64,000 nucleotides of DNA, taken from positions 12,942,932 through 13,006,931 of the forward strand of contig CAIIXF020000012.1 of NCBI GenBank assembly GCA_903813345.2, in the 5' to 3' direction. Below are positions 14,641 to 63,494 of the stretch, piece after piece. This DNA comes from Owenia fusiformis (Eukaryota; Annelida; Polychaeta; Sabellida; Oweniidae). Positions within the stretch are counted from its first letter, which is position 1. Each line of letters opens with the position of its first letter. A program made the position numbers and the translations under genes. The notes under the pieces are model-generated. The model worked only from the letters and a program-made list of their open reading frames with translations, was not told where the DNA came from and searched no databases.

Positions 14641-16450
14641 AAGTAAAGAAAACATAGGATGGTTGAAACCAATGGTATTCGATTGATTTTCGACTCTCCG
14701 TGGTGTTAATAATAAATACTAAGATTAAATAAAATGAAATTGTTGTTATTTGTTAATGATTTTATAGACATCCATTTGGAGAACTTGTTTATTCGTTGCT
14801 ATACACTGCATCGACGGTTTCATCAAACTCATCTGGTATCACCCACAAAAGCCGTCCACATGATGTCGGATTGTCGCCCAAATAGGTGTAAGATCGTATT
14901 GGCATGTCCTTGATGAAGTACGGTATGTATGTCTTGAATATAACTGGTTCATCATCAACCGTCCAAGCATGCTCAACCCCACTGCCAAGCATATACAGCT
15001 GTATGTGCCTTTCCAGTCTTTGGTTTCGTAAGTTTCACTTTAACAAATTATTATTTAACAACATGTAACGGGGTTGAGTTAAAACTGAAGTGTAATGATA
15101 TACTGATGTAAGTAATATAGAACAGTGAAATGTTTCGTTTATTTGTCAAATTTTCACAAAACCATCGAATACGGCGTTGGTTGGCGATATTTACGATTGC
15201 TGACCAGTAGTTTTCATTAGAGGTTAAGAACATGACAACTACCTTCAACTACATGTATAGAGTAAAAGAACATCCTATGAATTACCCAAGGTATGATTTC
15301 CATCTACTCATTGGATATGAGTACATAAAATGATAACTCAGAATAACTGACTAATTTGTCATATTATTTTTTGTCACATTCTGGTGGGAGTTTGGGGAAT
15401 TAGAATGTCCGAACCTTCCATTTATCCATTTGTATCGCCATCCAAGCGTTCCCGAGGTGAAGACCGCCTGTGGGAGATGAGGGAGTCTCACAACCTTGTT
15501 ATATTGAAATTCAATATACATTCTCCTTGCATCAATAAAGCATGTCTGACCACTTGCTAAGTATCCCTTGTATACCAAGCCTGGGGCAAACAGTGAGTCA
15601 TCTGAAAATGTTGGATTTGATCGGCAGTAAGTAACAGTTTTTGTTACAACACACATTTATTTCAAATGACCTTTAAACATTAACGTTCACTGAGATTTTT
15701 TCGAATTTATAAAATACGTCTCACTGTCTATTGCCTTATCTGGGTCTCCCTTTATTTATTTAATGGTCCAAACTGTCTGGTAAAACCAATCGAAAACTTT
15801 CTACTTCCCGGAAAAGACCAGTGGAAAAATGGCCTGCCATTATGGATTGCCCAGCCACGTTAAAGAAGTTCCTATGGACATTAAAGCTCTACACATTTTG
15901 AAATAAAAAATTTGCTTAATAGAATAAATCAGATGAGTGTCAATTCAATTATTATCTGAATAATTTGATGGAAGGCTTCTCAATCTCCCTGCAAGCTTAG
16001 TTTGGAGGGCCTGAGGATAATCAGATTAATAAGTAATTAAACTCGGAAAAAACGCGGATTTGAAAACAAAATTATTAAGACAGCGATGAAACCTGTAACC
16101 ACCATGAAAACTATATTAGTTTACCCAAAAGATAAGATCGAAAACTTACAAAAGTCACAAGTTTATTGACAACATACCATTTCAGATTTGCCAAAAGTCC
16201 TATGTAAGGGAAACTGCTAGAATAATCCAAATGGTACAGCTCAGCTATCACCACACATGTGTGCACCAGTAACTGTACTATAGATTGGGACAATGTAACA
16301 GTTCTAGATATGGTTTATATCCAAAGAACAAGTGTACGTTTTTATAGATTTTATTACATAAAATATAACATCTTACAAAACCTTTTGGCATGGGGAGACG
16401 GCTATCTATTTTGCAATATTCTCGTGAGTGTTCATGTTCGAATCGTAATA

Positions 16451-16612
16451 TAGACTTCAGAGCAGGGCTACTAGTTTCGAATACACCCCTTAGGTCTAGG
16501 CACAAAATCTTTCGAACCCCTCCCTCCCTTCGGTCGTACAGAAAACGTTTGTGCCTAGACCTGCGGGGTGTATTCGAAACTAGTAGCCCTGCTCTTCGGT
16601 CTATATTTCTTA
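16451..16612. repeat. Hairpin element, about 65-bp arms
   Basis: AGAGCAGGGCTACTAGTTTC near 16459 is mirrored by GAAACTAGTAGCCCTGCTCT near 16577, and the arms extend outward to ATATAGAC/GTCTATAT. The loop is about 35 bases and C/T-rich. It lies in intron 4 of linker-like copy 1. It is MITE-like in size; no target duplication is obvious. Confidence 0.65.
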
Positions 16613-16669
16613 AATTTTATATAAAGATGTCAGGTCAGTATAGGTGGGTACCTATGAACATGTAAGTAA

Positions 16670-16866
16670 CACCCCAGTCACATTTTCCTACGCTCGCCTT
16701 GCGGCCTCCGTACGGCGTATCCAGTTTTTTTCAGGCCGCAGGGTCGCCGTTGAAATTATATCTTGGAGTTATAATATTTATTCATTTCTGAGGTCCCCGT
16801 AGAAATAAAAAAAAGTATCATTTATCAACAGAAATTTAAAATTCACCGTGTGGCTGCCGTGGGAAA
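16670..16866. mobile_element. Truncated CACCCCAGTCACATTT MITE
   Basis: TAA followed by CACCCCAGTCACATTT at 16667-16685 is the left end of the element seen complete at 58469-58959. The internal match (GCCTTGCGGCCTCCGTACGG and AATTTAAAATTCAC) continues with a large deletion, and the right end breaks off within AAATGTGA next to the 3' end of the LINE. Confidence 0.65.
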
Positions 16867-16904
16867 TGTGAGTATAATAATATATAATATAATATACATA
16901 TTGT

Positions 16905-19705
16905 TAATTTTTTTTGTCTATGTGTTTTTTTGTTTGTTTTTTATTAAAAAAACATTTTGACTTCTGTAATATATTCTTACAAAGTATATTTTACACATTC
17001 ACTCCATTTCACAGACATCCTTCATCATTCATTCCATATCTTGGTATCATTTTCTTTACAGTATTTTAAATACATTTCGAATTTTTTGTACACTGGTAGT
17101 TCTCGTAGCAATTTTTGATTATACAAGAAGTATATTGCGATAATTATAATCATATTTTCGTATTTGCTCCATTTTTTAGAGCCAAAGAGCACATTGTTTA
17201 AATCAAAATATTTGAGTTTTTTTCAAAATGTGTTGCTTAACACTGTTCCAAAACTGATTTGTATATTCACAAAGATAAAATAAGTGATCAATCGTTTCAA
17301 ATGCGGTATGACAGAATTCGCACATTGGCGATTGTATTACATTATATATAAAAAGATCATTGTTTGTATATAAAATGCAATTTATAAGTTTAAATTGAAA
17401 AGCCCTGTGTTTAGAATACGTTAAAATGTAATGATAATACGTATAGTAAAAATTCCAGTCTTCTTCGTTTAATTCATAAGTAAGCTTTCCTTTCGCTGTT
17501 GGTTGTTCAACAATGTGTGACAATAAAATAGAATACAATAATTTTGATGTACATGTACATTCGTTAAACTGAAATATTTTTTTCCACGTACAATATCAAA
17601 ATTACAGTGTTTTGCATCTAAATTGACATTATTCTCAAATACATTATTTCTTATAAGCCAAGTTCTTGGGATGGCTTTTAAAATTCCAAACCATTTCAGC
17701 ATGTATCCATCAGATAGACCTGTTTGTACCTTAATCTGGTGCCATGTTTTAATTGATCATGATCCATCTATAAATAAATCTTTAATTTTTATTATGCCTC
17801 TATTGACAAATTCTTTCCAGAAGAGTGATTTATTTTGTATCGTGATTTTTTTGTTATTCCATATTATTTCCTCAGTCTGGTATATCAGTTTGTGAACGGG
17901 GCAATTCCATAAATGTTTGGAGCATGTGTATATAATACTTTGGCATATCAATATTCAATTTAGTTATATCATACTTGCAATTCAATACAAATAAGCCACC
18001 TTTTTGACGAAGGTAATAATTTGGAATGACAGTCCATGGAGGATTCTTGTTTGTATCTTTAATTAATTTCTGAACCCACTTTAGTTGGGCACTTTTAATT
18101 TTTGTTTTAAAATTACTCATTCTCAAGCCTCCTTCTTTGAAGTCGGAAATTAATGATTTCCTCTTAATTTTATCCCTGCCATTCCATAAAAATTTAAACG
18201 CAATTTCATTGATTTCTTTAAGGTATCTATCTGGTGTATCTATGACCGAACAAATAAAATTGAATTTTGATAACCCAAATGTTTTCACAATTTGTATTTT
18301 CCCTATTATTGTTAGTTGTCTAGTTTTCCACAGGTTAAGAGTTTGTTTTAAGTGATTTATCACGACTCTAAAATTTTGCTCATATTTCTTGGTTTCATCA
18401 TGGTTAAAGAAAACACCCCAAACTTTTATTTTTCGAACTTGTTTAAGTGCACCAATTTTCCAAATTTCATTTTTTGATTTGCCAATAGTGAAGAGTTCAG
18501 TTTTTTCTAAATTTGTTTTCAACCCACCACAATTTTCAAAGTCTTGTAGCACTCTCATAGCTTGGTGTACAGATTCTTTATCCCTTACAAAAAGTGTCAT
18601 GTCATCTGCGTAAATACTAAGTTTTATCTCCTTATCTTCCCCAATTTTAATCCCTTTGATTAAATGGTCATCTCTAATTGCTTGTGCCAGAAACTCTACT
18701 GAGAGAATAAACAGTATGGGGGACAAAGGATCTCCTTGCTTAATACCCCTTTCAATATTAAATTGTTCTCCACTAAATCCTAAATTCATAACTTTGGCAT
18801 GTATGTTAGTATAAAGTATTTTAATCCAAGATTTGATATACTCGTAGTCACCAAAAGTAAATGTTTCTAATGCTTGACAGAGGAAATCATGGTTTAATGA
18901 GTCAAATGCTTTGAGGAAATTAATTGCGATTAGAGCGCCATCTGTGTTTATATCACTTGTATAAAACATCGAATCTTCAATGAGTCTTGCTATTTCAGCC
19001 ATATGTCTATCTTTCACAAATGCAGCTTGATCTGATTGTATCGATTTATCCAAAAAAACTTCAATTCTTTTATAAATTACTTTAGCTATTATTTTTGGTT
19101 TTTCAAAAATAGAGCATCTCTATCTTTTTTGGAATAAGTTTCATTAATATTTCTCTTTGAGATGCTGACATTTCTTTTTTAGTGAAAGTAAAATTCATTG
19201 CCTCGATAAAAAAGCTCTTTATATTATTCCAAAAGAAAATGTAAAATTCTATTGTCAGTCCATCGCTTCCCGGGGACTTATCTAATTGAAACGTTTGCAT
19301 TGTCTTGAAGCATTCTTCGATTGTTATTTCAGACTCCATTGATAATTTATCCTTAGTGGACAATTTAGGAATATTAACATTTTTAAAAAACTTAATTGTA
19401 TTATTGTCGTCAACTTTTGCGTTACTTTTAGAATACAGATTTTTATAAAAGTCTAAAATGTTTCTCTGAACAGTTGAAAAATCTTTAACTATATCACCCT
19501 TTGAATTTTTAAGTCGTGTTATACTGTTTTTTGCAGCATTTTTCTTTTCAAGTTGCAAGAAATATTTTGTGCCTTTTTCGCCCTCGATAAAGTTTTGCGA
19601 TCTTGATCGAATCAGTTCTCTCTGTGTAATATACTCAAATATATTTTCAAGCTCTAATTGACATTTGTAAAATTCATCTTTAATGGCCATATCATTGGGG
19701 CTATT
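16905..19705 (-). mobile_element. 5'-truncated L1/Tx1-type LINE in linker copy 1 intron 4
   Basis: Minus-strand open segments at 19103-19690, 17872-19053 and 17203-17538 are successive parts of one reverse transcriptase ORF2. Visible in order are the pre-RT segment with GEKGTKYFLQLEKK, the SPGSDGLTIEFY and LIPKK motifs, FLKAFDSLNH, GIKQGDPLSPILF, the catalytic YADDM, and a C-terminal C-x2-C...H...C finger (CEFCHTAFETIDHLFYLC). The endonuclease domain is missing, the usual stretch between LIPKK and the DQAAF motif is deleted or scrambled, and frameshifts separate the pieces. The 3' end is A-rich, seen as T-runs near 16908-16945. It is a dead copy. This family inserts by target-primed reverse transcription; the clade is inferred from motif style. 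Confidence 0.8.
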
Positions 19706-20079
19706 ATCAAGTTAACGTTCATATATTGTATGATTTCATACGTTGTATCTTTTTCAGAGCTTGGATTCTTAAACTTCACAATCTTATGTAACTTTATTTA
19801 TGGAGCAAAATGATAATTAAATGATGAAATTTTAATGTCTCCTCTATAAGCTCGGGGGGGGGGGGTACAAAAAATATCAGAGTATGTTTTGTTACTCTTT
19901 TGAGACTCACCACAAACATCGCCCCATTCATCGCTTCCATCTGCGCAATCGACGTGACCATCGCAAACCTAAATCATATACGTACAGCACATATCAAATC
20001 ATTTCCATACGCTAACCACAGAGGTACAGAGTCGTTCCCTGTTCCAGATCGTGGCCGATTACCTTGGGGTACTTCGCTT

Positions 20080-20262: not shown

Positions 20263-21514
20263 TTTAGCATGTTTAATGTCTGTTTTCGATTCGATGGCAT
20301 CATATGTGTCAAGCGATGATAAATTAATATTGAATCATTGTTCCCTTTATACTACAGTAGAATAACTTTACTTAATTTTTCTTTGGTTCGATATATTTAT
20401 AAACTTAAAGGCTATTAAAATTAATGATGTACCAGCATTTCATGTATGCATTCGCCAGACTCTAGACAGCGAAGGTGATTCCTTCCTTTGTCGCATTTAT
20501 TTGCTAAAATTAACAATAATCAATTTTTTAAAATCAATTTTTTAAAATCGAGTACAAATTCAGTACATAATCCTTATATATTGAAAATGGTCTTCAAGGG
20601 ATGGTCCCCATCTTAGTACAATTGTCCGGATCAGTATAAAAATAAAAGGAAATCGTTTTAATTAGGTTCATTGAAGATCAATGTAAAATAACATACTCAT
20701 CTTGTACACGATCTCCGTATTAATCTTTGCATATTTACTGTAAATCTTCAGCCGTTCAAAATTCACTTCACCTGCCTGTGAGATTTTCTTAAACTTGTCT
20801 TCCGCCCTGAAGAATAAATTCTTAATGGTGGAATCATTTCGGTTTTCTAGTGTGTTTTGCCAATTGGGTATATGACTAGTAACCAAGTTGTATCCTGCAG
20901 TTGATATTGCGTCAGAAAGTCTGAGAATACTAGACTATATTTACAGTCGACTTTCTAAAAATTAGCAATATAAAGTCACGTTTTAATCTGAACTTCAAGA
21001 TCATGCACCGTGTTGCGTTAAAACACGAATAGAGGCACATTGGAGTATGGACTTCACCCATCTCTCCATACTTTCTCGCACACAGCACACGTCTCATATA
21101 TTTGTTCAACTCACAAAGTACCCAATTTGTATGAATAAAAATGTTTAATTCAGTGACATCTGAAATTTCTGATTTTTTAGCAACCTAAAATGAAGACATT
21201 AGCCTCAGTGACACCTGCTCTATTATCTTCACAAAATCGATATAGAAAATCTACATTTCACTTCTTATTCCTATATTTTACCCTGCGCATTTCCCTCGAT
21301 TTTTAAAAGCAACGGCCGCCATACGGTTGCCGTAGATCAACCCTTACTGAGGCATAACCAACCTGTGAAGGCGCTCTTCAATCCCTTTGCGTTTCTGTTC
21401 CAATCCATTTGTGAAACCACCGTTCATGGGCATATGCCTCCATCTTATTCTCGGTTTATGTGCTTCAGCCACAATTTCAACAAACACAAAAACTAAACAG
21501 ATATACGTATTCAT

Positions 21515-22085
21515 AGCAGATATATGTTATGAAATGTACACGTTGCCTTTTCCTGCAACGAAAGCAACGAAAGTTTCAAAGTCCATTGTTTAATGAGAAA
21601 CTGATGACATAACTTGTGTTAGGTTACGATATTTATTTAATGTTTGATTCGGCCTCGAGGAGGATTGTAAACCATTATTTAAACTCGATACCCGTTGCCT
21701 GGCGTGGAACGATTTAGTAAAAATATTTCTCTAAAGTTCTCTGCGAACTAAGTATTTCGTTGGAAGATTGATAATTCGAATATTATGCTTAAGCTTCCTC
21801 CAGTCTTCAAAATATGAGTAAAATTATTACCAAATTGCTCCACGCAAGGCAACGGAGTATTGAGTTTGAATAAGGGCTTCCGATCCTTCTTGATTCGACT
21901 TACTTTCAGAAGTTTAAAAATTGTCAAATTAATAACTAGAGATCGATCGAGACTGAAAGCAATGAAACGAAGGCATTGATGGCGTTTTTGACCTTTTAAA
22001 GGGTAAAATTGGGAAAATGTCAATCGTGAAGCAGACTACCTAGATGTCATCTCAATTTTCAAGTAGACATTGATCAGTTCCACGG
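21515..22085. other. 5' flank of linker-like copy 1, no gene
   Basis: This upstream stretch is partly alignable with the 5' flank of copy 2: GATGACATAACTTGT near 21602 against 33943, and GGCGTTTTTGACCTTTTAAA near 21979 against 34938. The shared segments are likely old promoter-proximal sequence carried along by the duplication. No TATA box could be chosen with confidence. Confidence 0.4.
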
Positions 22086-22330
22086 CAGGGTTACGGTATC
22101 ACAACGAAAGGCAATTTGCACGTATGACCAGGACGATAGGAAAATATTGAAGCGATGCTCATTTGGTGGGCGATTGGTCATACGTATAGGTTGGCGTTTC
22201 GATTTTATATGCAAGCTTAGACTTCCTAGTGATCACGAAAATAGTGGAAATTGTGCCATCACATCGTATAAAGGTCGAACCATCAAGCAAATCTTTTTGG
22301 TATCTATACACGTTGGCCGATTTGCCAATT
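22086..22330 (+). pseudogene. FReD relic
   Basis: Two blocks match the FReD exon of the upstream gene: 22086-22135 resembles 12121-12170 (CGTATGACCAGGAC), and 22233-22330 resembles 12172-12285 (GAAAATAGTGGAAATTGTGC). An insertion of about 95 bases separates them and the segment encoding the GAWWYN motif is lost. Reading frames are broken. It is the remnant of a second FReD copy next to the 3' flank of linker-like copy 2, mirroring the FReD/linker arrangement at 12-15 kb. Confidence 0.8.
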
Positions 22331-22580
22331 ACTAGTAATCCTTATTAGTCAATTAGTTCTTCATGTTTCTGGTTGTTAAATTCAGTTATATAACATATAT
22401 AAACTTTAATGTGCTCCTCTCTATAAAATTTGAGATACTAAATATAGAAGAATTCTATTGTGAACGATTTATTGAAAAACTGCTTTTCAATATTTGAGAC
22501 TAAATGAAATATTAATCGTTTGCAAAAGGTCCAACATTAACTGAACGTTTTTGGAAACATGTTATGAACAGGTCGCCCAT

Positions 22581-22697: not shown

Positions 22698-25600
22698 TTA
22701 TTCGTTGCTATATACTGCATCGACGGTTTCATCAAACTCATCTGGTATCACCCACAAAAGCCGTCCACATGATATCGGATTGTCGCCCAAGTAGACGTAC
22801 GACAGTATTGGCATGTCCTTGGTGAAGTACGATATGTTCGCCTTGAATATAACTGGTTCATCCTCAATCGTCCAAGCATGCTCAAACCCACTACCAGGCA
22901 TATATATGCTTTTCCAGTCTCTGGATTCGTAAGTCTTGCTATAATAAATCAATACTGACAATATGTATACAAAATAAATGGGGTTGAGTTAAAACGAGAG
23001 TGTAGTGATGTAATATCAAACAGTGGAGTGTTTTATATTTTTATCACATTTTCACAAAAACCATCCAATACAGGGGCATTGCATTTGATGGTTAAAGGTT
23101 GTTTTCTTCTAACACAGGAGGTGACTTATATTTACACTGGGAGATCAGTGGTTTTTATTAGAGGTTAAAACATGAAAGTGTGGCTTTAATGAACATCCTA
23201 TGATGCTTTCATGATGATTTTAAATAGTTTCATGTTTATTGGTTCCTATGAATATTACTCAATATAAATGACTGTATTTTTCTCATATTCTGGTGTGAGT
23301 TTGGAAAGATAAATGCGGTTGGAATTAGTACCTTCCATTTATCCATTCGTATTCCCATTCGAGTGTTCCTGTGTTGAAAGCCACCTGTGGGAAGTGAGGT
23401 AGTCTCCTTATCTTTTCACACTGGAAGTTGAGATACACCTTCCTTGCGTCCATGAAGCATGTCTGATCACGTAATAAGTATCCCCTGTATAGCAATCCAG
23501 TGGAAAAAAGAGAGAAATCTGGAAATCATGTTGAATTTAATCCCTTAAAGCTCCTTCAGTGTGAATAGCTTTTGTTACCACATACATTTTTAATTAAGAA
23601 TTTAAGCCCTGGACTCAGTGCATTGTTTGCTGAATCATACCATGAAGGTGTTGTTTGCAAATCTTTGCATGACTGCGCAGCGGGAATGCAAAGTTTAGGA
23701 AACAATGCCAGTGGAATGAAGCAGCTACAATGCATGTCTTGGGCTTAAATTCTATTCACACATTGCAAAATATTTTCTACAAAATTACCTAAAATATACA
23801 AGTCACAAAAACATATTTTCAATGAAACTTTTTGCAAGGGTCAAGTCTTGGGAAACTTCACAACACAAATAGTTTGTAGAAACATATCAAACTAAAAAAA
23901 ACAAATTATACCCAAGTATACAATTACTCGCGGCTAAATCATATGTTTCGTCATATGACGATTCCAAAAATGGACCCCTAAGTAAGATGGAATATAAGTT
24001 GAGAGGAAATATCTCAAAAAGTCTCGAACTTAGGATCACCTTGATCACTTAACTTAATACAAAATATCATGGCAGAGATATTGTAGGCAATGTAAGAATG
24101 AAATAGGTGATGAGTTTCATTTTTTATTCAAGTGTAAAGTTAATCATAAATTAAGAGAGGAAATGTTTTGTAAAGTAAAAGGTATATATGATCTATTTGA
24201 GTCTTGTGATAATGAAAAGAAAACAATGTACTTATTGAATTCTAAATCACTCTGTAAATATGTTTCACATTTTTTGCTTTTGTCTTTGGAGGCTAAAGAT
24301 AGATTAAAGTAAGTGTTAATTCTGACTTATCTGCTTATAATATGATTGCAATTGTTTCTCATAAGCCTTTGGAGGCTGGCCGTATAATTACGGGTGACAC
24401 TGTAATAAATAAATAAAGTAAATAAATAAATATATCCTGTTTTGATCTTCTTAATTTTGGAACTCACCACAAACGTGTGCCCGTTCATCGCTTCCATCTG
24501 CACAATCGACGTGTCCGTCACAAACCTAAAATATGAATGAAATCATTATCGTACGCCAGTTACGTAGGTAAGTGCAGCGTCGATCCTCGTTCCTGATTTT
24601 GCACGACTACTTTTGGAGTACTTAGTTCTAGGGGGTACAAGCGCGTGCAGTATTTTCGTCTGGTACAAACCGAGATACTGGACGCAGTCCTCCATTTTTG
24701 ATCCAGAGAGAGATAGGTGTGATTTTACTCGGAAGCCTGTGATCGTTTTACAGTGTTTCCTTATCCAATAACAGGCTCATCAGATTCCCCAGTACATTGA
24801 GGAACATACAATTCTTATAAAGTGTACGATCATATTGTGTTAAAAAGAATTGGATCCCTTGCAAAAAATAGTATGCCTAACTTACAAGGTGCTTCTCAGA
24901 GTCATTGCTCTGCTGTTCATACTTCCCTTTTAGTTCAGGAAACCATTGCCCACAATGTCGAAAAGCATAGAAATGTAATATTAGCCACATTAGATATTAG
25001 TAAAGCATTTGACACCGTTTGGTTAGATGGATTGATGGTCAAACTACATAAACTTGGTATCCGTGGCAAACTGTGGCGTATGCTTTATGATAATTACCAT
25101 AAATATGAATGTGCCGTTCGTGTAGGAAGTTCAAATACACTTTCTAAACCTTTTAATGTCATGCAGGGCGTCCACCAAGGGGGTGTCCTATCTATGCTAT
25201 TTTATCAGTTGTACATGGCTGACCTTATTCAGGATCTATGTGAAATGAATATAGGTGGCCACATTGATGATGTAAATTGTGTATGTCCTTCTTATGCGGA
25301 TGACATGACCATTATTGCCACAAATCAAAAGGATATGCAACTTATGTTAAACGCTGCCTTTGAACATAGTAGAAGATGGCGATATGAAATCCATCCAGCG
25401 AAATGTAACTTTCTGACATTTAATGATATGGTCACTGATTCAAGTGTTAAAGGTCATGTCGTTCTCAAGATAGGTGACACGAGAATTCCAAAGGTCAATT
25501 TCACTGTTCATGTTGGTATTCCAATATCTAGTAAAAATGATATCTCACAATATGTTAATGATCGCTGCACTAGTGGTAAGCGAAAATTCTGCTCACTTTT

Positions 25601-28600
25601 GGGACTGGGGCACAAAACAGGTGGTTTGTCACCCTTAACAGCATCAAAACTGTACTGGGCCTTTTCTATTCCAACCATGCTGTTTGGGGCACCAGTTATA
25701 AATTACCAAGCGTCAGATGTTGAAAAGCTTGAATTGACTCATAGGGAGATTGGCAAACGTATCCAATTTTTCCCCAAAACCTCAGCCAATCCTAGTGCAA
25801 CGATGCCGTTGGGATGGTTGTCAATAGACGGCTATATTACAGTGTTGCAGATGATGTATCTCTGGAGTTTACTTAGGTTTAATAATATTTACAGGGATAT
25901 AACTATAACACGGTTAGTAAAGATGTTTCATGTCACTTATGACAACCATGCCGATATTTTCTCTCCTATCCGGCGCATTTTCCTTAAGACCAAAATGCTA
26001 GGAATTGAAAATCTGGTTAAAAATGCGCTGGACTCTGGATATCTTCCGTCGAAGAGGTCATGGAGACTGCAAATTGTCAATGCTGTAAGATCCGTCGAGG
26101 TCAAGCAATTTTTCTTGCAATGCTCATGTTATGGCAAACTTTTATACCTACGTGACTATGTCACAGACTTAAAACCTTGCATATGGTGGTTGATTTGTCA
26201 GAAATATCCTAAATGTCAAAGCCAGTGTAAAACTATGATGCAATTGATAGTACCCCACACACTAATTAGTCACAAACTTTAAAACTTGTTTTGAACACTT
26301 TCCCCTTATTGAATCATGATGAAATTTCACATGGACAAACTATAAACACTTTCCAACACTCAGATTTTTTTGATTTGCATGAATTTTAATTTTCAAATTT
26401 TTACAGTCATTTAAGATGAAGCACCAATTTCGCATTTTTTCACATTTTATGCTATATTTATGTATATTTGGCTTAATTCTTTGAGATGTACAAATTGAAA
26501 CACTTGGATAAACTTTAACATCAACAACTTTTTAAGTAGTTTTCTACTTACTGTCATACATTACATTACTGTCATATGTATTTCAAATTTTTAATAACTG
26601 GTGGATAGCATTATGAAGACAGTGGTTCATGTCTTTGTGTAGATTCATATACGCTTTCCGGGCCACTGGAATACATGGCGGGCATCTTTGGCTCTGTTTC
26701 TCCTGTTTTTCACCCGGCTTGCCACTTTACTTCCTGCAACGCGTCTATTGAAATCTTTACCAGTAGCTCTCTTTTTGTAGAATTCCTTAAAGGCATGAGG
26801 GTTGTTTCTCATTTCAAACAGCGCGTCATTGAGAGCAAGTAAACAAAATCCTGATTACATGCTCAGCTGTAATATCACAGTCGCAGTTTGTGAAGGTATC
26901 TCTCACAAAGAGGAATGCAGATGACTCCGTGGTCAAGAAGTTTGCAATTGCATCTGAAGCCAGGAATCGATATCTTGGTGGTCCAGGACTTCACCGGCTT
27001 TTACCTAGGGGGTCAACCCTAGTTTGGGATAGATTAGGATGCTAAGGGAGGGCCCTGAATCCATGCAAACAGCATTACAATCCTGAAGTCAGGGTAAAAT
27101 TAGAAGAAAATGGTGTAAACGTAGTGATGCTACCTCCAAAGGGCCATCTTCTTAATCCTTGTGAGCTCTTCAACAATAGCATCCAACAAAAAGTATCACG
27201 GTGGCATCCCCCTGGCATGAATATGGCCACTCAATTGTAGGCCCCCGATCCTTTGAGGAATGTTTACTTGCTCTCAATGACGCGCTGTTTGAAATGAGAA
27301 ACATGCCCGCCATGTATTCCAGTGGCCCGGAAAGCGTATATGAATCTACACAAAGACATGAACCACTGTCTTCATAATGCTATCCTCCAGTTATTAAAAA
27401 TTTGAAATACATATGACAGTAATGTAATGTATAGCAGTAAGTAGAAAACTACTTTAAAAGTTGTTGATGTTAAAGTTTATCCAAGTGTTTCAATTTGCAC
27501 ATCTCAAAGAATTAAGCCAAATATACATAAATATAGCATAAAATGTGAAAAAATGCGAAATTGGTGCTTCATCTTAAATGACTGTAAAAATCTGAAAATT
27601 AAAATTCAAGCAAATCAAAAAAATCTGAGTGTTGGAAAGTGTTTATAGTTTGTCCATGTGAAATTTCATCATGATTCAATAAGGGGAAAGTGTTCAAAAC
27701 AAGTTTTAAAGTTTGTGACTAATTAGTGTGTGGGGTACTATGTAACGCCCATGTATTAAATACGAACAACTTCAATGGTTCAAAACGATGTATATTGTGT
27801 AACCTCTGTGAAACTGAAACAATTGAACATTTTATATTAAGATGCCCTATGTATGAACCATATAGGCATAACATATTTGAAGCCCTTGGCTGTCGTGGTG
27901 ACAGTATGGGTGTTATTATGAAGAAAGTTTTAGGTCTCTCAGATGTTTCATGTGAGACGTTAATAATTGTATCATCATGTGTACACAAAATGTACAATCA
28001 CAGAGCCAACCTGGTGGCTCTGCTTGACACATAATTTCTCTATCACTTTATTTTCATGTTTTCCAAAACAACAACTTTTTTATCACATAATTTAATCTTA
28101 TCCTTGTATTTTATATTTTATATGTAAACCATATGTATACTAAAATGTATTCTCTCATATAAATGAGGCAATAAATATACAATACAATACAATAAAATGA
28201 CAGTCATTCATCTAGATTTTTGTAATGTGGGGTTGAGCATGGAAATATTTTGATTTTTTCCCAGGAAATACACGAATCGAGTCAGATTTATTTTTATTTA
28301 CCAAAATATTGAAGAGATGTGCAATTTACTTGTGTATGGAATTAGAATACAACTTCCAGTTGGCAAATTTTAGCTTTGAAATGACCGAAAAGAGAAAAAT
28401 GACAAAAAAGGAAATACCGGAGGAAATGAAAATGTACTGGATGAAAGCCATCCTGAATTAACAAGCTTGCGTCCGTTACATTTTTTATTTCGCCCGGTAT
28501 TTTTAAAATTTCGTCACTTTTCTTTTATCGATCACTTTTAAGCTTAATTTTGAAGATTGGAGGCTGCATTGTTAGTTCATAAGAAAATTGCATATCTTGT

Positions 28601-31600
28601 CAATGAAATGGTAAATAAAAAGAAATATAACTTGATTCGTGTGTTTACTGAAAAACAATCAAAATATTTATGTACTTAATCAAAGAGAAACTAGATGGAT
28701 AGCTGTAATTTTATAAGAATTGGATATTCCCCAATGTACTGGGAACCTGATGGGCCTGTTTTTAGCTAAGGACACACTGTAAAACGATCACAAACGACCG
28801 AGTAAAATTACACCTACCTCTCTCTGGATAAAAAATGGAGGTCCGCGTCCAGTATTTCCAGTTGTACCAGACGAAAATACTGGGCGCGTTTCTATCTACT
28901 GAGTTTAAGCATTTTTATTGTTACGTTTTCCGATGGTTTGCTGAGGTATTGTGTGTTAATTATGCAATGATAATATAATTACTCTACAAGTATTATTCTT
29001 GTTATATAGTTATTTAACATTTATATAATTAAATTATATTTGACAAAATATGTATATGTTAATATAAACAAGCCGGGGCAATTAGAATTAACAGATTAAT
29101 GAGTTACCAGCAGTTCATGTATGCATTCGCCGGACTCTAGACAGCGAAGACGATTCCTTCTTTTTTCGCATTGGTTTGCTAAAATCAACGTTTATTTAAC
29201 AGATTATAAAAATCGAGTACAAATTCTAAGATTGTGACCATATTCAGGCAACATCACAAAATCACAAGAATGATCTTTTGTTATATCTCCAAAAAGCATA
29301 GAAACGAGGAATCTAGGGATTGATACATGGCCATGTGATATTTTGTTGGTCATGTTGGTAGAAAACGTAAGCTAAAATGAAATGTAATATTCCCGAAGCT
29401 AGAATTTCAAAGTACACTGAAGTACAATTATTAGTAATTCAACGTGGGTATTCTTCGCAAAAACATAAGTTGTTATTAGAGAAACAAACGAATGAAAGAA
29501 TCTTGTTATTAAATCATAATTGACTACCACACATTTTTGATCATCTCTTTATGAATGTGACTCTCCGTGGAGCCATGTATTTTCAAAATAATACTGTCTA
29601 CATATTGAGTATGACATTACTATTGGCTCTAGATAGTATCATCAATAGGCTACATTACCCAAATATAGAACACTCTACTATACCTTGCACTTGGTGTTCA
29701 TGAGCAACCCATTTGGCTTATTGGTAATGATTGTGTTATTTCTTTTATTTGTCTGTTCCTTCTTAATGGTTTATCGGATGACTACTAGATGTTAATAAGG
29801 TACTTTCGAAAATATACTATACAAAACAATAAGACAAACAGAGTACTGTATCTTACGTATTTCTAGGGGTTATGTCATCATGATAAACCATGACATCTCA
29901 ATTCTTCTCAGCCCTGAGATGCATGTTTCAGGTGAAACAGAAAGATGCTATGAGTATCAGAATGGGGTTAGGTATAGTAGAGTGAAAAGTGGGTAATGTA
30001 TCAAGGGTAGAAGGTTAGTTTCGCGTTTTAGCATGGAAGGGAGCATCTCGAACCCGGATCTCGAATGATCAATTGGATAACTTACTGTATTTGAACAGTT
30101 AAGCTGTGACCCCCCTCCCTCCCCCTCATAACTGTGTTTGAGAAATATTGATATGCGTTACTTCATAGGTCACACTATATTTAACATAATATGTAACGCG
30201 GTTAAGGTAAAAGTAAAATAGTATAGATTAGGTTCATGTAAAATAACATACTCATCTTGTACACGATCTCCGTATTGATCTTTGCATATTTACTATGCAT
30301 CTTCAGTCGTTCAAATTCTACTTCACGTGCCTTGAAGATACTCTTAACCTTGTCTTCCGCCCTGAAAATTATATTCTGATTTACATGGCCAATCCATTTC
30401 GGTTTTCTAGTGTCTGGTGTAATATCTTCACTTTAAGTATAATAACTATGGAGTTGATTGCGTCAGATATTCTGAGAATATAGTTAATAAAGTCGACTAT
30501 ACTATGTAATAGATATATAACTAAGTCACGTATATATTAATCTGAACTAAAGATCACGCATCGTGTTGCGTTAAAACACGAATATAAAGGCACATTAGAC
30601 TTCACCCATCGCTCCATACTTCCTTGTGTTGTGCTTGGTTCGTGAGAGATGAACTTTGCTTTGGCGTTGGTATAGAGGTGTCGGAGCGGGACCAGAATTT
30701 GGCTATAAATACGTGGAGAAATGCACCACTGTGTAGAACACTGTGGAGACACTTGTGCATTTTACATTTGATATATATTCATGTCTGGCATTTCAATTTT
30801 TTGTATTGTAAATTCCTAAATTAAGCGCTCAGTTTGTGATTTTGGATTTTAAAAAGGTAAATTGTGCGATTTTTGTTTTTCATTAAATGTTAATACAAAT
30901 AGACTTTTACTGAGACGTTTATTCAAATATAGTATATACCTAGTGTTTTCACGTCAAGCAATTCAATAAATTATCTGTGAATTTTCTGCGCAGCTTGTAA
31001 AATGTTGCACTCGTCATGGTATTATACAAAAAGTTGATGCGCGCAGAGCAATGCAAAAATTTGTCATGCGTCATGAGTATTACTTTGCTGTAAATGTTAT
31101 TTGACATTGTTAAAGCAATTTGAACGTAAATCGGTTCCAAGTAATGGAAATGCAACGATTAAATTGTGATATGTTTGTTTGAAATGATATGAGAGATTAT
31201 TAAAGAAAATTGTAATGTTATTCATTCTTAATGTCATATTACATTAATAGAAGCACTTTAGATTTAAAACATTTCTTCTTTAATCCTTGAAGGACTTTTG
31301 TTAAAGTTACAAATTCCAATAAAGGTCTTTACTCTTAAACACTTCCCACTTGAAATAATTTCCCAGTAGTCAAGCGCGATATGCTGCTAAACCAATGCTG
31401 CTGCTATTTATACCCCCGCCGAGGCAACGCTCTCATGCGCAGAACGCCGCTATACCAACGCTCGCATTACCGCTAAACAAACGCTAGCTACCGCTCGCAA
31501 CCGCTTAACCAACGCTAAAGCAACCCCGGCTTCAGCGGTGCACCGCTAAGCCAACGCCCATGTTTTTGTTTTTTTCCCCATTTTGTGCGCGTTGACGAGC

Positions 31601-33831
31601 GTTGATGAATTTTTTCAACGTTCAAGGAACGCTCCAGCAACGTCCGGGCGGTGTGACCGGGCCTTTACCCAAACGCTCCTACATGCACGACGGAGCGTTA
31701 CATTTACGCGGAAACGCTCCGAAGCGAAATAAAATGGCGGCTAATGAAGATTCTACTATGACCGTAAGTATTGTTTCTCTCGTTTCTCTTACATATCATA
31801 TGTCATGGTGAAATATTATGTACCATTCGATGAACAATACCGTGAGCAAAGATCTTATTTATTCAACTTCTGGTGGTAAACTGTTATTTGCTTGATCAAA
31901 GCTCCGTAGTGTAGATCGAACGAATCTGAAGATGACGATTTGACCATAAATTACGAATTAAACTAGTATTTCTATGAAAACGTTAATCTTTCTGTTTAAG
32001 TAGTAGATCACAAACTCGTATATTCTCATTTCCTAAAATCCCAGTCCAAATCCATTACTTGTTCTCGAGAAATCGCTTGTTTTCTTCTAAACGCTCCGTC
32101 GATTTAGACCACAATTTTAGAAACGCTCTTACCATTTTGTTTTGATATCATTTTCAAATTATTAGAGTTCCGAATCGAATCTATCTCTCAAAAACGTGTT
32201 GTACTTGTTAGGCAAATTGAAACATCTGAACCTGGTGGTGCTAAACGTGCAACTAGCTGATTAAAGCCTATACATTAGATGATGTCATGCCTACATATGT
32301 GCTAAATCATAAAACTATAGAAAAAACGAAAAGTTATAAGTGAATTAATCTCTCTTCTATTGATGCCAAGGGGTATAATAGATATTTTCTTTCTTTTCCT
32401 GAAAAGGAAAGGCAAGCTATATATTTCCTTAACTGATCTAGACTACCGGAGCGTTTCCAATTCACTGTGTTAACCACATCGGAGCGTTTCTTGAATATGA
32501 GAATGTCATCATTTTTAAGACTGGATTTTCGGTCATCAAATCACTATTACGATGATGTATGGTGCGTTGAAGCATTAAAATTTGACTAAAATATACGTTG
32601 GTGCTTTAATCTTGGCTCAACTAATCACATGTATCGACAAAGGGGTTTTGACCGGTAGAATGACAAACACGTTTTTGAATTTTGATAACTATACTGCTTC
32701 GTACAGCTCTTCCTAATTGCTTCAAACGTCAACAGCCAGCCACGTACAGCATGAATATCACACCCATCGAATGGTATACTCGAAATATGTAACTCATACC
32801 TCTTATTCCCATTATTGGGGAAATTGTCAGACGGCTCATCATTCCCGCCAGACAGTTTTCCTACTCCGGAGCGTTTCTTTATTTAATTTCAGCAATGAAA
32901 CGCTCCGTCGTGCATGTAGGAGCGTTTGGGTTTTCCACCGTGGTGTTGCTCTATTGAGTCTACCAAACTGAATTTTACGCCCCATAGCACATGGGAATTA
33001 TGTATATTCACTGATAAATCTTTACAATAGCTCTGGTTTATAGTTTTATTACCCTTGTTCAATAGGAAACTTGTCAGCGGTCTTAAATGGCACACTCTTT
33101 TTGGCACTAAAGAGCATGTGACTTTGTACCTTCCCCAAGATCGGTAGTGCAGTACTGTATGAACGTATGAGATGCTTTCAATTTCTTACCCTACTATCAC
33201 ACCAAACTAGTTTTCACTACGTTCTTGAAAACGTGCTTCAACTGTGTACGAGCGAGTAAGAACGGGTTTGGTGTGATAGGGGGGTTAACTAGTAAAATAA
33301 ATATACAATTTATGTAAATTAAAGGTTGGTGGTGTTTCCATATGCTACACTTCTAAATAAGTGTGTGTAGTAAATGTACATAAATATAAATACAAATATG
33401 CGAGTAAAACTAAAATGTATTGGCTGCTTAAGATATAATCGTTTGTTGCCAAAACGTGAGGCTGCCGCGTTGACGTTGCAACTACCAATCAACAAAATGT
33501 ACCAGAAAGCAGATTTTCCTATTAAGAAATAACAGAATAACAGAAATTAAATGTAGTTTATATGGTTACAGTATGGAATGTATGCTAGAAGAAATGAGAT
33601 TAAGAGAATAATAGTGTATTAAGATTGATATTGTTCTGATAAACAAAATGTATGTAATAATATTGAAAGAATTACCAACCTGTAAAGGCGCTCTTCGATT
33701 CCTTGAAGTTTCTGATCCAATTCATTTGTGTAACCCCCGTCCAAGCGCATATGCCTCCATCTGAATCTCGGTTCATTTGCACCAGCAACAAGTGCAACAA
33801 ACACAAAAACTAAACAGGTATACGTATTCAT
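22698..33831 (-). CDS. Hemoglobin linker-chain-like secreted protein, copy 2 (intact)
   Basis: Six exons: 33680-33831, 30252-30361, 29108-29178, 24468-24525, 23332-23518, 22698-22938, with intron phases 2, 1, 0, 1, 2 and GT/AG borders throughout. The coding length is 819 nt, 272 residues. Residues 1-18 are a signal peptide (MNTYTCLVFVFVALVAGA). Residues 40-88 are charged and helical, a likely coiled coil. Residues 91-130 are one LDLa module (Cys 91, 100, 106, 113, 119, 130; CDGHVDCADGSDE). Residues 131-272 form the C-terminal domain, with cysteines at 151, 164 and 250. The start is the first ATG of the signal peptide. In annelids, proteins of this layout bridge globin dodecamers in the hexagonal-bilayer extracellular hemoglobin; assignment here rests on architecture. 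The stop overlaps AATAAA (GAATAAAC), implying a very short 3' UTR. Intron 3 holds nested transposons and intron 1 a 1.5 kb element, yet all splice sites are preserved. Alternative: another secreted LDLa protein family. Confidence 0.7.
24060..24430 (+). mobile_element. LINE 3'-end fragment in linker copy 2 intron 4
   Basis: An open frame at 24076-24312 encodes a reverse-transcriptase-type terminal zinc finger (CRQCKNEIGDEFHFLFKC) and about 60 further residues to a TAA stop. About 100 bases later comes an AATAAATAAATAAAG-type tail. This is the standard end of a 5'-truncated non-LTR insertion. It is a different family from the other LINE pieces in the window, judged by finger spacing and tail. 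Confidence 0.65.
24822..28195 (+). mobile_element. Non-LTR retrotransposon (RT plus zinc finger), split by a DNA transposon
   Basis: An open frame at 24822-26282 encodes a reverse transcriptase fragment: ATLDISKAFDTVWLDGL, NVMQGVHQGGVLSMLFYQLY and the catalytic SYADDMTII. No ATG context or endonuclease is present, so the copy is 5'-truncated. After a 1.5 kb insertion the frame resumes at 27741 with CILCNLCETETIEHFILRC, the terminal zinc finger, and stops at 28034. The 3' end is a short ATACA repeat (28176-28193). Removing the insertion with one TA rejoins the frame exactly. The motif style suggests the Jockey/I/CR1 side of the non-LTR tree rather than L1; the clade is uncertain. Confidence 0.8.
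26250..27738. mobile_element. Tc1/mariner-like foldback with TA target duplication
   Basis: The ends are GTACCCCACACACTAATTAG and its inverse, flanked by TA at 26248-26249 and 27739-27740. The inverted arms run about 450-590 bases (26250-26843 against 27263-27738), with about 120 bases in the left arm absent from the right. The middle contains a frame with VVMLPPKGHLLNPCELFNN (about 27117-27175), resembling the LPPYSPDLNPIE segment of DDE transposases, and no full transposase. An inverted duplication of the 3' part of a Tc1/mariner-type element fits. It interrupts the retrotransposon in frame-restorable fashion. Confidence 0.75.
28890..29107. other. Intron 3 remainder of linker copy 2
   Basis: AT-rich intron sequence between the nested transposons and exon 3 (29108-29178). 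Nothing recognisable. Confidence 0.4.
29179..30251. other. Intron 2 of linker copy 2, no further gene
   Basis: About 1.07 kb against 193 bp for the same intron in copy 1. No coding frame and no clear terminal repeats were seen; the added sequence is unexplained. Confidence 0.4.
31400..32945. mobile_element. AAACGCTCCG-repeat TIR element in linker copy 2 intron 1
   Basis: CCCAAACGCTCCTACATGCA followed by CGACGGAGCGTT at about 31669 is mirrored at 32897-32935, giving terminal repeats of about 40 bp. The motif AAACGCTCC, or its inverse GGAGCGTTT, recurs in between (about 31713, 32088, 32122, 32447, 32478, 32868). A GC-rich block at 31400-31600 holds many AACGCT and ACCGCT repeats. Copy 1 intron 1 is only 556 bp and lacks all this. 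A short ATG-led frame at about 31733-31762 ends at an excellent GTAAGT donor, perhaps a first exon. No transposase is visible. Confidence 0.55.
33187..33287. mobile_element. 100-bp miniature of the GTTC/ACGT-rich family
   Basis: TACTATCACACCAAACTAGT on the left and GGTTTGGTGTGATAGGGGGG on the right bound little more than the two terminal repeats. It is an internally deleted relative of the elements at 2051, 34009 and 35582. Confidence 0.75.
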
Positions 33832-34008
33832 AACAGATAAATATTAATGAACTGTACACATTCTCTCTCTTATGTGACTGGATAACCAACTGAGCAACGA
33901 AAGTCAAAAGTTTTAAAGTCCATTTTTTAATAAGATATTGATGACGTAATTTGTCTTAAGGTTACAATATTCTATTTTGGAATTGGCCTGCTTACAGGCC
34001 AATTCACA

Positions 34009-34896
34009 CCTATCACACCAAACTAGTTCTTACCCGTTCTTGACAGTCCTACGAAAACGTCGTAAAACGGGTTCAATCTGGCTGTGGTCGGGAAATATGT
34101 CTAAAATGATTAGCTACTTCGTTAATAAACAGTCTTCAATACGTCCATCTCATTCGCAGTTCGTTCAGGTCGCACCACGTCGGTGTGCAACGTCGTATAA
34201 CGCACCCCTTAGTCTAAAAGGTCATCATGACCTGATTACAGAACAGTATGGTCGCCATCGAATTTTGAATCGATTCAAAATTCGAAATCACATTCCCCGT
34301 CCTGGAAAGTCTATGAAGTTCGTAAACAAACCGTATAACGTTGTAGCTACGTTCATTCCGTTCGCACACAGTTTTAAAACCAGTTTTGAAGAACGCAGTG
34401 GCATTTTGTTTGGTGTGATAGCTATATTTTTGCCAACTCGTTCATAAGCAGTCTTAAAAACGTTCTTAATCAGTTTAAACCCGTTCGCAATTAGTTCACC
34501 TCGTTCTCAATACGTCCTCAGACAGTGCAACTCGTTGTTAAAAAGTTCCTAGTAGCTACCTCGTTCATAAACAGTCTTTAATACGTTCTTAGTCAGTTTA
34601 AACCCGTTTGCAATTAGTTCTACCTCGTTCTCAATACGTCCTCAGACTGTTCAATCGTTGTAAAAACGTTCCTAGTAGGATTGAAGTACGACGGTTCCGT
34701 TCGTAGTACGTCCAGCTCGTCGTTAGTACGTTGTCACTCATTCTAATTGTAGAACGTATCGATCACGAGAACATTTTGAGCATGTTCTAAGTTCTAGAGG
34801 ACCTACCCGGTGCTAAGTACGTCCAGTCTTTTCGTACACAGTTGAAGCGCGTTTTCGAGAACGTAGTGAAAACAAGTTTGGTGTGATAGTAGGGTT
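34009..34896. mobile_element. GTTC/ACGT-rich TIR element, copy 2
   Basis: Bounded by CCTATCACACCAAACTAGTT and the inverse GTTTGGTGTGATAGTAGGGT. It is closely similar to the copy at 2051-2858, with an extra internal segment around 34440-34620 that repeats GTTCATAA...CAGTCTT. The 156-codon frame at 33977-34447 is repeat-derived and I do not consider it a gene. Confidence 0.7.
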
Positions 34897-35581
34897 AAGA
34901 AAGTCGGAACTAGAAATCTTATAGAGGCACTGATGAAGGCGTTTTTGACCTTTTAAAGTTACCAAGATATAAAATCGGGAAAATGTCATGGGTTAAATCC
35001 TGTCATTTTGGAGATGATTTTGAAAAAATGACTCAATTTGAAGCAATTTTAAATACATTAACATTACTTTCGATCAGAAATATCGATTTTTAACACCATT
35101 CGCGCACCATTGACGTTTAACCGTGAAAAGTTCCAAATAACCGATCTGAAAAATTGACATTTTTATATTTTGAAGGGGACTGCTGGTCAACAACAAAAGG
35201 TCACATCTCAAATCAAATATCAGACATGAACTCCTGGCAACTAAGGAAGACTTTTTTTTTATAAAATCAAACTTTATTAATAAACATATTTTACATTACA
35301 TGCATACAATAAGATAAAATACAATTATAGAAATTTCAAGTTACATTACATCTTTCTGATCATTATTTCATTATCAAAAATAGCTTTTACATTACTAGCT
35401 GTATTGACCCTTTTTTTAAATCATGTATAGCTTTTTTAATTACCAATGTTTTAAGTAAATCTTCTTTTTTAACAATTGCATTTCCAATTCTTAAATTTTT
35501 TAATAAGATATTGATGACGTAATTTGTCTTAAGGTTACAATATTCTATTTTGGAATTGGCCTGCTTACAGGCCAATTCACA

Positions 35582-59345: not shown

Positions 59346-59621
59346 ACGCTCCTCCAAGATATCAATTCTATATCCCTATGCCTTCAAGTATAATATTTTC
59401 AAGATTCGATCTGATATGACTTGCAGAAATAAATAGGAAGTAATCGTTTAGTTGATTGAATTATGGAAGTAGTGAAGTAGTGAAGTCAATGATTTAATGA
59501 ATAAAAGCAAATGTTTTTAATTTGAACAGGTCATTCATCAAATGACACTGAAGATTAACTTAAAATAGATTGTCTATCTATATATTTTTATGCATGAGAG
59601 ACATGTTATAATGTTGGTGAA

Positions 59622-61424: not shown

Positions 61425-61845
61425 TTTCGCCCCTTCCCAAAATGGGAAATGGCGAAATGGGAAGGGGCCAATTGGGAAGGGGCAAAATGGGAATAAATGA
61501 GGGACGAAATGGGAAGGGCCGAAATGGGAAAGGGGCGAAATGGGAAAGGGGCAAAATGGGACTGAATGAGGGCAAAATTGGAAGGGCCGAAATGGGAAAG
61601 GGGTGAAATGGGAAGGGGCGAATTGGAGAAGGGGCCGCGAAATGGAGAAGGGGCGACATGGGAAGGCGCGAAATGGGATGGGGCGATAAGGAAAAGGGGC
61701 GATATGGGAAGGCGGCAACACGGGAAAGGGGTGAAATGGCAAAGGGGCAAAATGGGAAAGGGGGGAAATGGGAAAGGGGCCAATTGGGAAGGGGTGAAAT
61801 GGGAATAAATGAGGGGCAAAATGGGAAGGGTCGGACTGGGAATAA
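61425..61845. repeat. GGGGCGAAATGGGAAA minisatellite
   Basis: About 26 degenerate copies of a 15-17 base unit around GGGGCGAAATGGGAAA. It stays open in several frames on both strands, giving spurious repetitive frames (His-Phe-Ala-Pro or Lys-Trp-Glu-Arg-Gly types). There are no splice or start signals of note; I read it as non-coding. Confidence 0.85.
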
Positions 61846-61869
61846 ACCGGAAAAATCATTTAGTTGAAT

Positions 61870-62190
61870 TTGTATGTAAACATATTACACTTTGGCTAGC
61901 GAGCAGCCATTTTGAAAAATGATAGTCATTTTTATGTGTGTTATTTTACGATTTTTGCTACAACTGAAAAGTAGTATGGGTTCATGTACTCCTCTTTATA
62001 AAATCTGAGGTACTAGATATAGTAGAGTTATTTGTGAATGATTTATTGAAAAACTACTCGTCAATATTTGAGACCGAATAAAATGTTAATTTTTCGTAAA
62101 AGGACCAACATTAACTGAAAGTTTTAAAAACATTTTATGAACAGGTCGGCCATTGATTGTCTAGAATTCACTATCAATTTGGAGAACTTA
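61870..62190. repeat. Duplicated 3' flank of linker-like copy 3
   Basis: Matches 13580-13830 in part and 13990-14190 more fully, as well as 22400-22620. The left border of homology near 61860 marks the edge of the third duplication unit, right next to the minisatellite. Confidence 0.7.
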
Positions 62191-62191
62191 T

Positions 62192-63494
62192 TTATTCGTT
62201 GCTATACACTGCATCGACGGTTTCATCAAACTCATCCGGTATAGCCCACGTAAACCATCCACATGATGTCGGATTGTCGCCCAAGTAGGTGTACGATCGT
62301 ATTGGCGTTTCCTGGATGTAGTACGATATGTTTGTCCTGAATATAACTGGTTCATCCTCAACCGTCCAAGCAAGCTCAAACCCACTGCCAAACATGTATG
62401 TTCCTTTCCAGTCTCTGGTTTCGTAAGTTTTGCTATAACAAATTTAACAGAATTTATTTACGGGATTGTGTTAAAACGGAAGTGTAATGATATGATGAAA
62501 ACAGTGAAATATTTCATATTTTTGTCAAACATTCACAAAACCCCTTCGAATACGGTGTTGGTTAACGATTTTTTTCTTCGTGAAAGGTGGCTGATATCTA
62601 CGAATGCAGACCAGTCGTTTTCAGTAGAGCTTAAGAACCTGACTTTTTATGTGTATTTGATATGAGTACATAAAATGATTACTGGGAATAACTGACTAAT
62701 TTGTCATATTATTTTTTTGGCACGTTCTGGTGGGAGTGAGAATGTCCGAACCTTCCATTCATCCATTCGTATTCCCATTCAAGCGTTCCCGAGGTGAAGA
62801 CTGCCTGCGAGAGATGAGGTAGTCTCACTATCTTGTCATATTGAAATTCAAGATGCACTCTCCTTGCATCAATAAAGCATGTCTGACCACTTGCTAAGTA
62901 TCCTTTGTATACCAATCCAGGGGCAAAAAGTGAGTCATCTGGAAATGTTGGATTTGATCGGGAGTAAGTAACAGATTTTGTTAAAACACACATTTATTTC
63001 ATTTTCTTAAATAAACTTTAAATTTTAACGTTCCTTGAGATTTTTAACAATTTATTAAAATATGTCTCACTGTATATTGCCTTATCTGGGTCTCCCTTAA
63101 TTTATTTAATGGTCTAAACTGTTTGGTTAAACCAATCGAAAACTTTCTAGTTCCCGGAAAAGACCCGCAGTGGAAACCTTTGGGTAGACGTTGTCATTAC
63201 CGGATGCCCAAACGTGGCAGGAACACGTACATAGATACTCGAGTGATGTTGATTGGACATCAGTGTGCAGAGAAATCGTTATTTTACTAACTGAGTGGCT
63301 TCACATTATGTAACTGTATTTATGGAGCAAAATGATAATAAATGATAATAAAATGATAAGGTTGTAATGCTTCCTCAATAAATTCAGGGGGGTACACGAA
63401 TATCAGAGTATATTCTGTTACTCTTTTGAGACTCACCACAAACATCGCCCCATTCATCGCTTCCATCTGCGCAATCGACGTGACCATCGCAAAC
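62192..63494 (-). CDS. Hemoglobin linker-chain-like gene, copy 3 (exons 4-6; 5' part outside window)
   Basis: Three exons: 63437-63494 (second half of LDLa, with CDGHVDCADGSDEW), 62752-62938 and 62192-62432 (C-terminal domain, starting DDSLFAPGLVYKGYLASG). Lengths 58, 187 and 241 nt and phases 0, 1, 2 are identical to copy 2, and the frame is open to the same VDAVYSNE end and TAA stop overlapping AATAAA. Protein and intron sequence are closer to copy 1 than to copy 2. The exon for the first LDLa half, the helix and the signal peptide should lie beyond 64000. Intron 4 is only 498 bp, free of the LINE seen in copy 1, and so probably shows the ancestral form. Confidence 0.7.

Follow-up and report, generated by a model that had tools for sequence, protein, structure and literature searches.

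The closest described systems to the genes treated here are the linker chains (L1–L4) of the annelid hexagonal-bilayer haemoglobins, which combine an LDLa domain with the domain of the Pfam model Eryth_link_C (PF16915). PMC5383013 describes what the LDLR-like domain, the barrel and the coiled coil do in linkers, and reports that disulfides and hydrophobic contacts hold the chains of linker trimers. Linkers occur beyond annelid blood, since a metazoan survey (PMC6400237) gives linker genes of ten phyla, with 1–11 linkers expressed per species, and describes the evolutionary history of haemoglobin linkers as unclear. Four linkers are reported for Alvinella and six for Riftia. In a genome survey (PMC7771090), the only species with linkers were four annelids that possess extracellular globins. 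The LDLa module itself is also common to LDLR, VLDLR and LRP, in which it forms arrays, in contrast to the single LDLa found here. We analysed a window of 64,000 nucleotides (nt) of contig CAIIXF020000012.1 (12,942,932–13,006,931) of the Owenia fusiformis assembly GCA_903813345.2, which contains a cluster of genes resembling linkers; positions below are those of the window unless a position in Mb is given. The comparison of the sequences supports the view that these genes are linker homologues on a divergent, separate branch, and favours the term linker-like over linker.

Gene plan and homology with haemoglobin linkers

Three gene copies, A, B and C (1, 2 and 3), are located on the minus strand, A at 21514–14789, B at 33831–22698 and exons 4–6 of C at 63494–62192. 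A and B have exons 1–5 of the same lengths (152, 110, 71, 58 and 187 nt), followed by an exon 6 of 249 nt in A and 241 nt in B. In copy C, exons 4–6 (58, 187 and 241 nt) lie inside the window and exons 1–3 (152, 110 and 71 nt) past its end. All introns modelled in the three copies have GT/AG ends and phases 2,1,0,1,2. Copies B and C encode 272 amino acids (aa) each, and the full-length members which could be read range from 252 to 272 aa. Because identity between corresponding exons of the three copies is 74–100%, chance is no workable explanation for the shared gene plan. The exon models confirm the original prediction of three copies on one strand with these phases and a second copy of 272 residues; the identical lengths it gave for the last three exons where undisturbed (58, 187 and 241 nt) hold for B and C, while exon 6 of A has 249 nt.

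The cluster had been taken for a three-member one. The three copies are real, but the array does not end with the window. A genome search with the last two exons of B located six exon-5 loci on the contig of the window (C12), all on the minus strand (12.958, 12.966, 13.006, 13.011, 13.044 and 13.050 Mb), and a seventh copy, G, on C1 at 45.573 Mb. The C12 array therefore comprises six genes, A–F, across ~100 kb and is cut by the window edge. Exon identities divide them into two subtypes, A, C and E versus B, D and F (exon 5 identity is 90% for A–C, 93% for B–D and 74% for A–B). Since the subtypes alternate in gene order, the array seems to consist of a gene pair repeated three times in tandem (A/B, C/D and E/F).

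The proteins carry a helix, a single LDLa and a C-terminal domain in that order, behind a start which by eye resembles a signal peptide, as had been predicted. The helix-like stretch is ~50 residues long, with a periodicity over its full length of p 0.006 in B, 0.040 in C and 0.010 in F; in 35-residue windows the values are 0.026, 0.258 and 0.094, respectively (500 shuffles each). The LDLa contains six cysteines, with the core CDGHVDCADGSDE in B, C and F and CDGHVDCADGTDE in G, and in B, C and F their spacing agrees with that of linkers throughout, save the first spacing, which is 8 and not 5–7. Two barrel cysteines, one in exon 5 and one near the C-terminus, occupy positions common to B, C, F and the linkers. 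Absence of some expected barrel cysteines had been proposed as a mark of divergence. This did not hold, because three of the four linkers of the same genome described below (K1, K3 and K4) likewise have just two, aligned with those of copy C, and a low number of barrel cysteines was accordingly rejected as an oddity of the window genes. A third barrel cysteine is present in linker K2, and also in B and F but at another position. The N-terminal CxC motif is present in K1, K3 and K4 and in the linker-like proteins I9d, I4, I2 and I5a from elsewhere in the genome, the four intermediates for which exon 1 could be read, and is absent from B, C and F. It may take part in the disulfides of linker trimers.

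The exon plan was compared with that of linkers K1–K4 of this genome, which served as the yardstick (exon 1 of K2 was not found). K1 has five introns at positions matching those of the window genes and in the same phases, as do the intermediates, i.e. linker-like genes outside the window type. K2–K4 differ from the window genes only in the absence of the mid-LDLa intron, which K1 alone among the four linkers has kept. Since the exon models had been searched under phases 2,1,0,1,2, seven genes (B, I4, I9d and K1–K4) were checked again with no phase assumed. Of their 63 boundaries, 60 have a best-scoring splice site (within 20 nt) in the modelled phase, and the other three show a tie with a site 4 nt off.

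Profile comparison leads to the same relationship. Alignment of seven linker-like proteins with K1–K4 by hhalign covers 239 colinear columns with a probability of 99.9. As the LDLa could drive such a full-length match, the barrel was compared alone, and still aligned with the linkers at a probability of 97.2 and 23% identity. The barrel profiles score 44.5 (window-type), 75.4 (intermediates) and 84.8 (both pooled) against linkers, compared to best scores of 22.6, 21.8 and 17.8 when the columns of the linker alignment were shuffled 150 times per comparison. Window-type and intermediate barrels score 92.9 against each other, a value without shuffle control. With the linker-barrel profile in hmmsearch, 14 of 17 linker-like barrels score higher than any of 420 shuffled sequences, the best of which reaches 9.2 bits. 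All four linkers exceed the best shuffle both with the window-type profile (6.9–17.6 versus 5.1 bits) and with the intermediate profile (30.2–40.1 versus 4.8). In a search of 177,635 PDB sequences, the top match of a 15-row linker-like barrel profile is 'Hemoglobin linker 1', in register and weak (E 0.16). Homology of the barrels is seen in the profile comparisons with K1–K4; PDB searches show it weakly or not at all.

With a single sequence, phmmer places the LDL receptor (3.9e-11) just ahead of linker L2 (2.8e-10). A protein search had been suggested as a check on the linker assignment; in this one linkers rank slightly below the LDL receptor, and most of the linker rows reach beyond the LDLa. 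Among the 60 rows shown, 10 of 13 linker rows extend more than 10 residues past the LDLa into helix or barrel and three stay within it, whereas the LDL-receptor alignments printed are confined to the LDLa. The shared exon plan and phases, the colinear profile match and the barrel-only match above shuffles together uphold the proposal that these genes are linkers or linker-like paralogs.

Linkers, globins and the linker-like family in the genome

The genuine linkers of this worm reside elsewhere. PF16915 gives six exon matches genome-wide (E up to 10), four of them over the cut-off and all at C6 27.028–27.050 Mb, which resolve into four linker genes, K1–K4. As positive controls, the whole proteins of K4 (1.6e-16) and K1 (2.4e-11) both pass the Pfam cut-off. 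K4 also matches linkers of solved structure (22jw_M, 2.8e-22), which come after two LRP2 entries owing to the many LDLa repeats summed in the latter. K1 has lost the fourth and sixth cysteines of its LDLa, which we take to be a disulfide pair. Four of the 19 globin matches in the genome lie beside these linkers (C6 27.056–27.082 Mb), and none of the 19 is on C12. Upstream of each C6 globin there is a candidate first exon with a signal-peptide-like start followed by a cysteine, by eye of the extracellular annelid type; one of the four globin matches has an in-frame TAA near its start. Hence ~56 kb of C6 (27.026–27.082 Mb) unite four linkers with four globins of the extracellular type, so that the two components of a giant haemoglobin share one locus.

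The genome contains no fewer than 32 loci with the barrel exon, 28 linker-like and the four linkers. They are distributed over C12 (6), C1 (3), C2 (5), C4 (3), C5 (3), C6 (4, the linkers), C8 (1), C9 (6) and C11 (1). One exon-5 locus was counted per gene, and many of the loci came from the barrels of the intermediates I4, C2c and I9d used as queries. Splice boundaries of exon 5 could be modelled for 27 of the 32 loci, in the searched phase, and five loci (three on C9 and one each on C5 and C2) are known from matches alone. Weak matches on C3 (12.55 and 6.14 Mb) and at C8:10.56 Mb (E 3.0–6.4) were excluded from the 32. Further groups of linker-like genes are seen at C2:7.006–7.075 Mb (five exon-5 loci), C9:24.15–24.18 Mb (four) and C5:25.96–25.97 Mb (two).

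An unrooted barrel tree of 23 rows and 132 columns compares K1–K4 and two PDB chains with 17 linker-like barrels. A branch with 99/98 support separates the six linkers from the 17 linker-like barrels, and the four window-type rows group together (98/99). The window genes thus fall outside the linker clade, subject to the tree program's warning about long branches. With the same caution, the split between linkers and linker-like genes looks older than that between the linkers of this worm and the solved ones, as the solved linkers are placed with K2–K4. The suggestion that the window genes may form a divergent branch is borne out by their position opposite the linkers on this tree and by the failure of Eryth_link_C to match.

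Compared with the annelid linkers, including K1–K4, the window genes have the same domain order, exon phases and barrel cysteines. They differ in the missing Eryth_link_C match, the low barrel identity, the separate clade, the loss of CxC in B, C and F, an extra 16-residue C-terminal tail in B, C, E and G, and the lack of a globin match on the same chromosome.

State of the copies, selection and neighbouring features

Copies B, C and F are open across all six exons; in D, exons 3–6 can be read and exons 1–2 were observed as open frames. D and F have 2 extra nt, through which the protein terminates at CGFLAWM and CGFFTWV, respectively, so that F (256 aa) is 16 residues shorter than B. The intermediates and C6 linkers which were aligned likewise end 6–13 residues past the last conserved cysteine. 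Copy E is broken, with a stop in exon 2 and 9 nt missing from exon 5; similarity in its exon 1 ends after residue 35 and the usual donor position has no donor. Exon 6 of copy A has 8 nt more than that of C, so that with the acceptor homologous to the other copies the frame is shifted and ends early. A reading in which no acceptor could rescue this frame was rejected, because there are two alternative in-phase AGs, at 15017 and 15008 (20 and 29 nt downstream of the modelled acceptor). Either would restore the usual frame with the loss of a few residues, and the nearer one scores equal to the modelled acceptor (6 and 6 on a crude scale). Copy A is therefore likely, but not certainly, broken. Upstream, copy C has an additional exon 2 (exon 2') and also a further exon 3, which is broken (segment L004 1932–1558); exons 2 and 2' could be mutually exclusive.

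Selection was estimated as omega by the Nei–Gojobori method, with exon 6 trimmed before the tail and with exclusion of A exon 6, E exons 1 and 5, D exons 1–2 and G exon 1. In the 15 pairs which are between subtypes or include the C1 copy, omega is 0.23–0.62, and, for pairs with data, 0.17–0.32 in the LDLa and 0.24–0.95 in the barrel. The interval excludes 1 in 12 of these 15 pairs, the others being B–E, D–E and E–F. The genes have been under long-term purifying selection, strongest in the LDLa, with the barrel changing faster.

Positions of the exons and of neighbouring features are presented in the table. A fibrinogen C-terminal domain exon adjoins the array, and of the three reverse-transcriptase open reading frames (ORFs), one is located within an intron of copy A and another within an intron of copy B, adding to the length of these copies. 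A reading by eye of 43661–43879 as CAP/SCP was dropped, as there was no Pfam match at 0.01.

Table. Exons of copies A, B and C and neighbouring features (window positions, except where segment L004 is named)
Feature	Position	Strand	Description
Copy A exon 1	21363..21514	-	signal-peptide-like start and beginning of helix, 152 nt, phase 2 end
Copy A exon 2	20697..20806	-	helix, 110 nt
Copy A exon 3	20433..20503	-	LDLa first half, 71 nt
Copy A exon 4	19911..19968	-	LDLa second half, 58 nt
Copy A exon 5	15415..15601	-	barrel first half, 187 nt
Copy A exon 6	14789..15037	-	barrel second half, 249 nt; 8 extra nt
Copy B exon 1	33680..33831	-	signal-peptide-like start and beginning of helix, 152 nt
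Copy B exon 2	30252..30361	-	helix, 110 nt
Copy B exon 3	29108..29178	-	LDLa first half, 71 nt
Copy B exon 4	24468..24525	-	LDLa second half, 58 nt
Copy B exon 5	23332..23518	-	barrel first half, 187 nt
Copy B exon 6	22698..22938	-	barrel second half and 16-residue tail, 241 nt
Copy C exons 1-3	segment L004 2681-2530, 714-605, 408-338	-	beyond window end
Copy C exon 4	63437..63494	-	LDLa second half, 58 nt
Copy C exon 5	62752..62938	-	barrel first half, 187 nt
Copy C exon 6	62192..62432	-	barrel second half and tail, 241 nt
Fibrinogen C-terminal domain exon	11677-12339	+	Pfam 7.6e-48
Fibrinogen-like piece	22030-22335		degraded-looking, by eye
Reverse-transcriptase ORF	17875-19119	-	Pfam RVT_1; inside copy A intron
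Reverse-transcriptase ORF	24801-26279	+	Pfam RVT_1; inside copy B intron
Reverse-transcriptase ORF	36963-38684	-	Pfam RVT_1
Direct duplication	33922-34221 / 35495-35794		spacing 1573 nt, 99% identity over 300 nt; just upstream of copy B

Possible roles and meaning of the linker-like genes

The window copies are probably not the main haemoglobin linkers, because the linker-plus-globin locus lies on C6, their CxC is lost and their barrel is the faster-changing part. The most likely reading, which we regard as probable, is that they encode secreted oligomeric LDLa/barrel adaptors whose partner is not the main haemoglobin. By analogy with linkers, the helices would pair into a short coiled coil through which several chains oligomerise. 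The LDLa would fold around calcium and, together with the barrel, form a multivalent binding face; in linkers, the same parts bind globin dodecamers. With less assurance, the secreted oligomers may adapt some other partner in the body fluid.

Several observations weigh against this reading. Eryth_link_C is not matched at E up to 1 by any of the five linker-like proteins searched against Pfam (B, C, I4, I9d and I2), in all of which the LDLa is above the cut-off and no other domain passes. The intermediate barrels C11, C1b and I4 fail to outscore the best shuffle when searched with the linker profile, and the PDB search with a barrel profile of the window genes and three intermediates finds no linkers, its best match being a chance match to eL30 (E 0.29); a linker came first, at the weak E value given above, once more intermediates were included. 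In the tree, the 13 intermediates are grouped with a support of 43/22 only, with a warning from the program that the branches of window-type genes and linkers, being long, may be misplaced. Pairs of the same subtype have omega 0.36–0.92, and only A–C among the six excludes 1, B–F reaching 0.92 (0.54–2.04). Since these intervals mostly include 1, present-day constraint on single copies is not demonstrated. Moreover, a well-conserved LDLa equally fits continued globin binding, and absence of CxC alone does not exclude incorporation in haemoglobin.

The strongest of the alternatives is that the copies function as haemoglobin linkers at a particular stage or in a particular tissue, being diverged chains which continue to bind globin dodecamers and build a variant hexagonal-bilayer haemoglobin. 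In keeping with it, the six LDLa cysteines and core are the most constrained part, the overall build is that of linkers, and linkers are reportedly interchangeable, according to the metazoan survey (PMC6400237). We nevertheless consider it rather unlikely, as the copies lie outside the linker clade (99/98, long branches noted), B, C and F are without CxC, C12 has no globin match, and the 28 additional loci are far above the number of linkers which that survey gives as expressed per species.

Less probable still is that the array consists mostly of decaying relics, lengthened and broken by retroelements and without function. The frameshift of A under the homologous acceptor, the stop, gap and lost exon 1 similarity and donor of E, the reverse-transcriptase ORFs within introns and the five of six same-subtype omega intervals that include 1 are what such decay would leave. 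Against decay stand the open frames of B, C and F, the readable exons of D, the alternative acceptors of A and the 12 between-subtype or C1 intervals that exclude 1. That the copies are unrelated LDLa proteins, like linkers in the LDLa only, as the phmmer ranking, the Pfam result and the failed PDB search might suggest, is hardly credible given barrel-only profile matches above shuffles, equal intron phases on both sides of the LDLa and inside the barrel, and intermediate genes which bridge window genes and linkers.

Beyond the secreted-adaptor reading of the window copies, we propose tentatively, and with less than even confidence, that linkers may be one specialised offshoot of a larger and older family of secreted oligomeric LDLa/barrel adaptors doing non-respiratory work, such as the capture of ligands in body fluid, which would have been overlooked because the Pfam linker model is blind to it. 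We found no description of a linker-like family beside the linkers in the open-licence papers searched, which is no proof of absence. The metazoan survey (PMC6400237) accepted only sequences with an LDL-A signature in addition to a Pfam match at 1e-10 to a linker or globin domain. Such criteria would probably miss the linker-like genes, since the five tested proteins give no Pfam linker domain.

Linker counts based on Pfam can thus miss most of the superfamily, here four recognised genes versus at least 28 further loci (Pfam having been run on five of the 28). With so many sister genes of the same exon plan, characters of sequence, introns and expression can be used to examine whether linkers were derived from secreted adaptors or secreted adaptors from linkers. 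Besides building haemoglobin, the linker design may serve other purposes.

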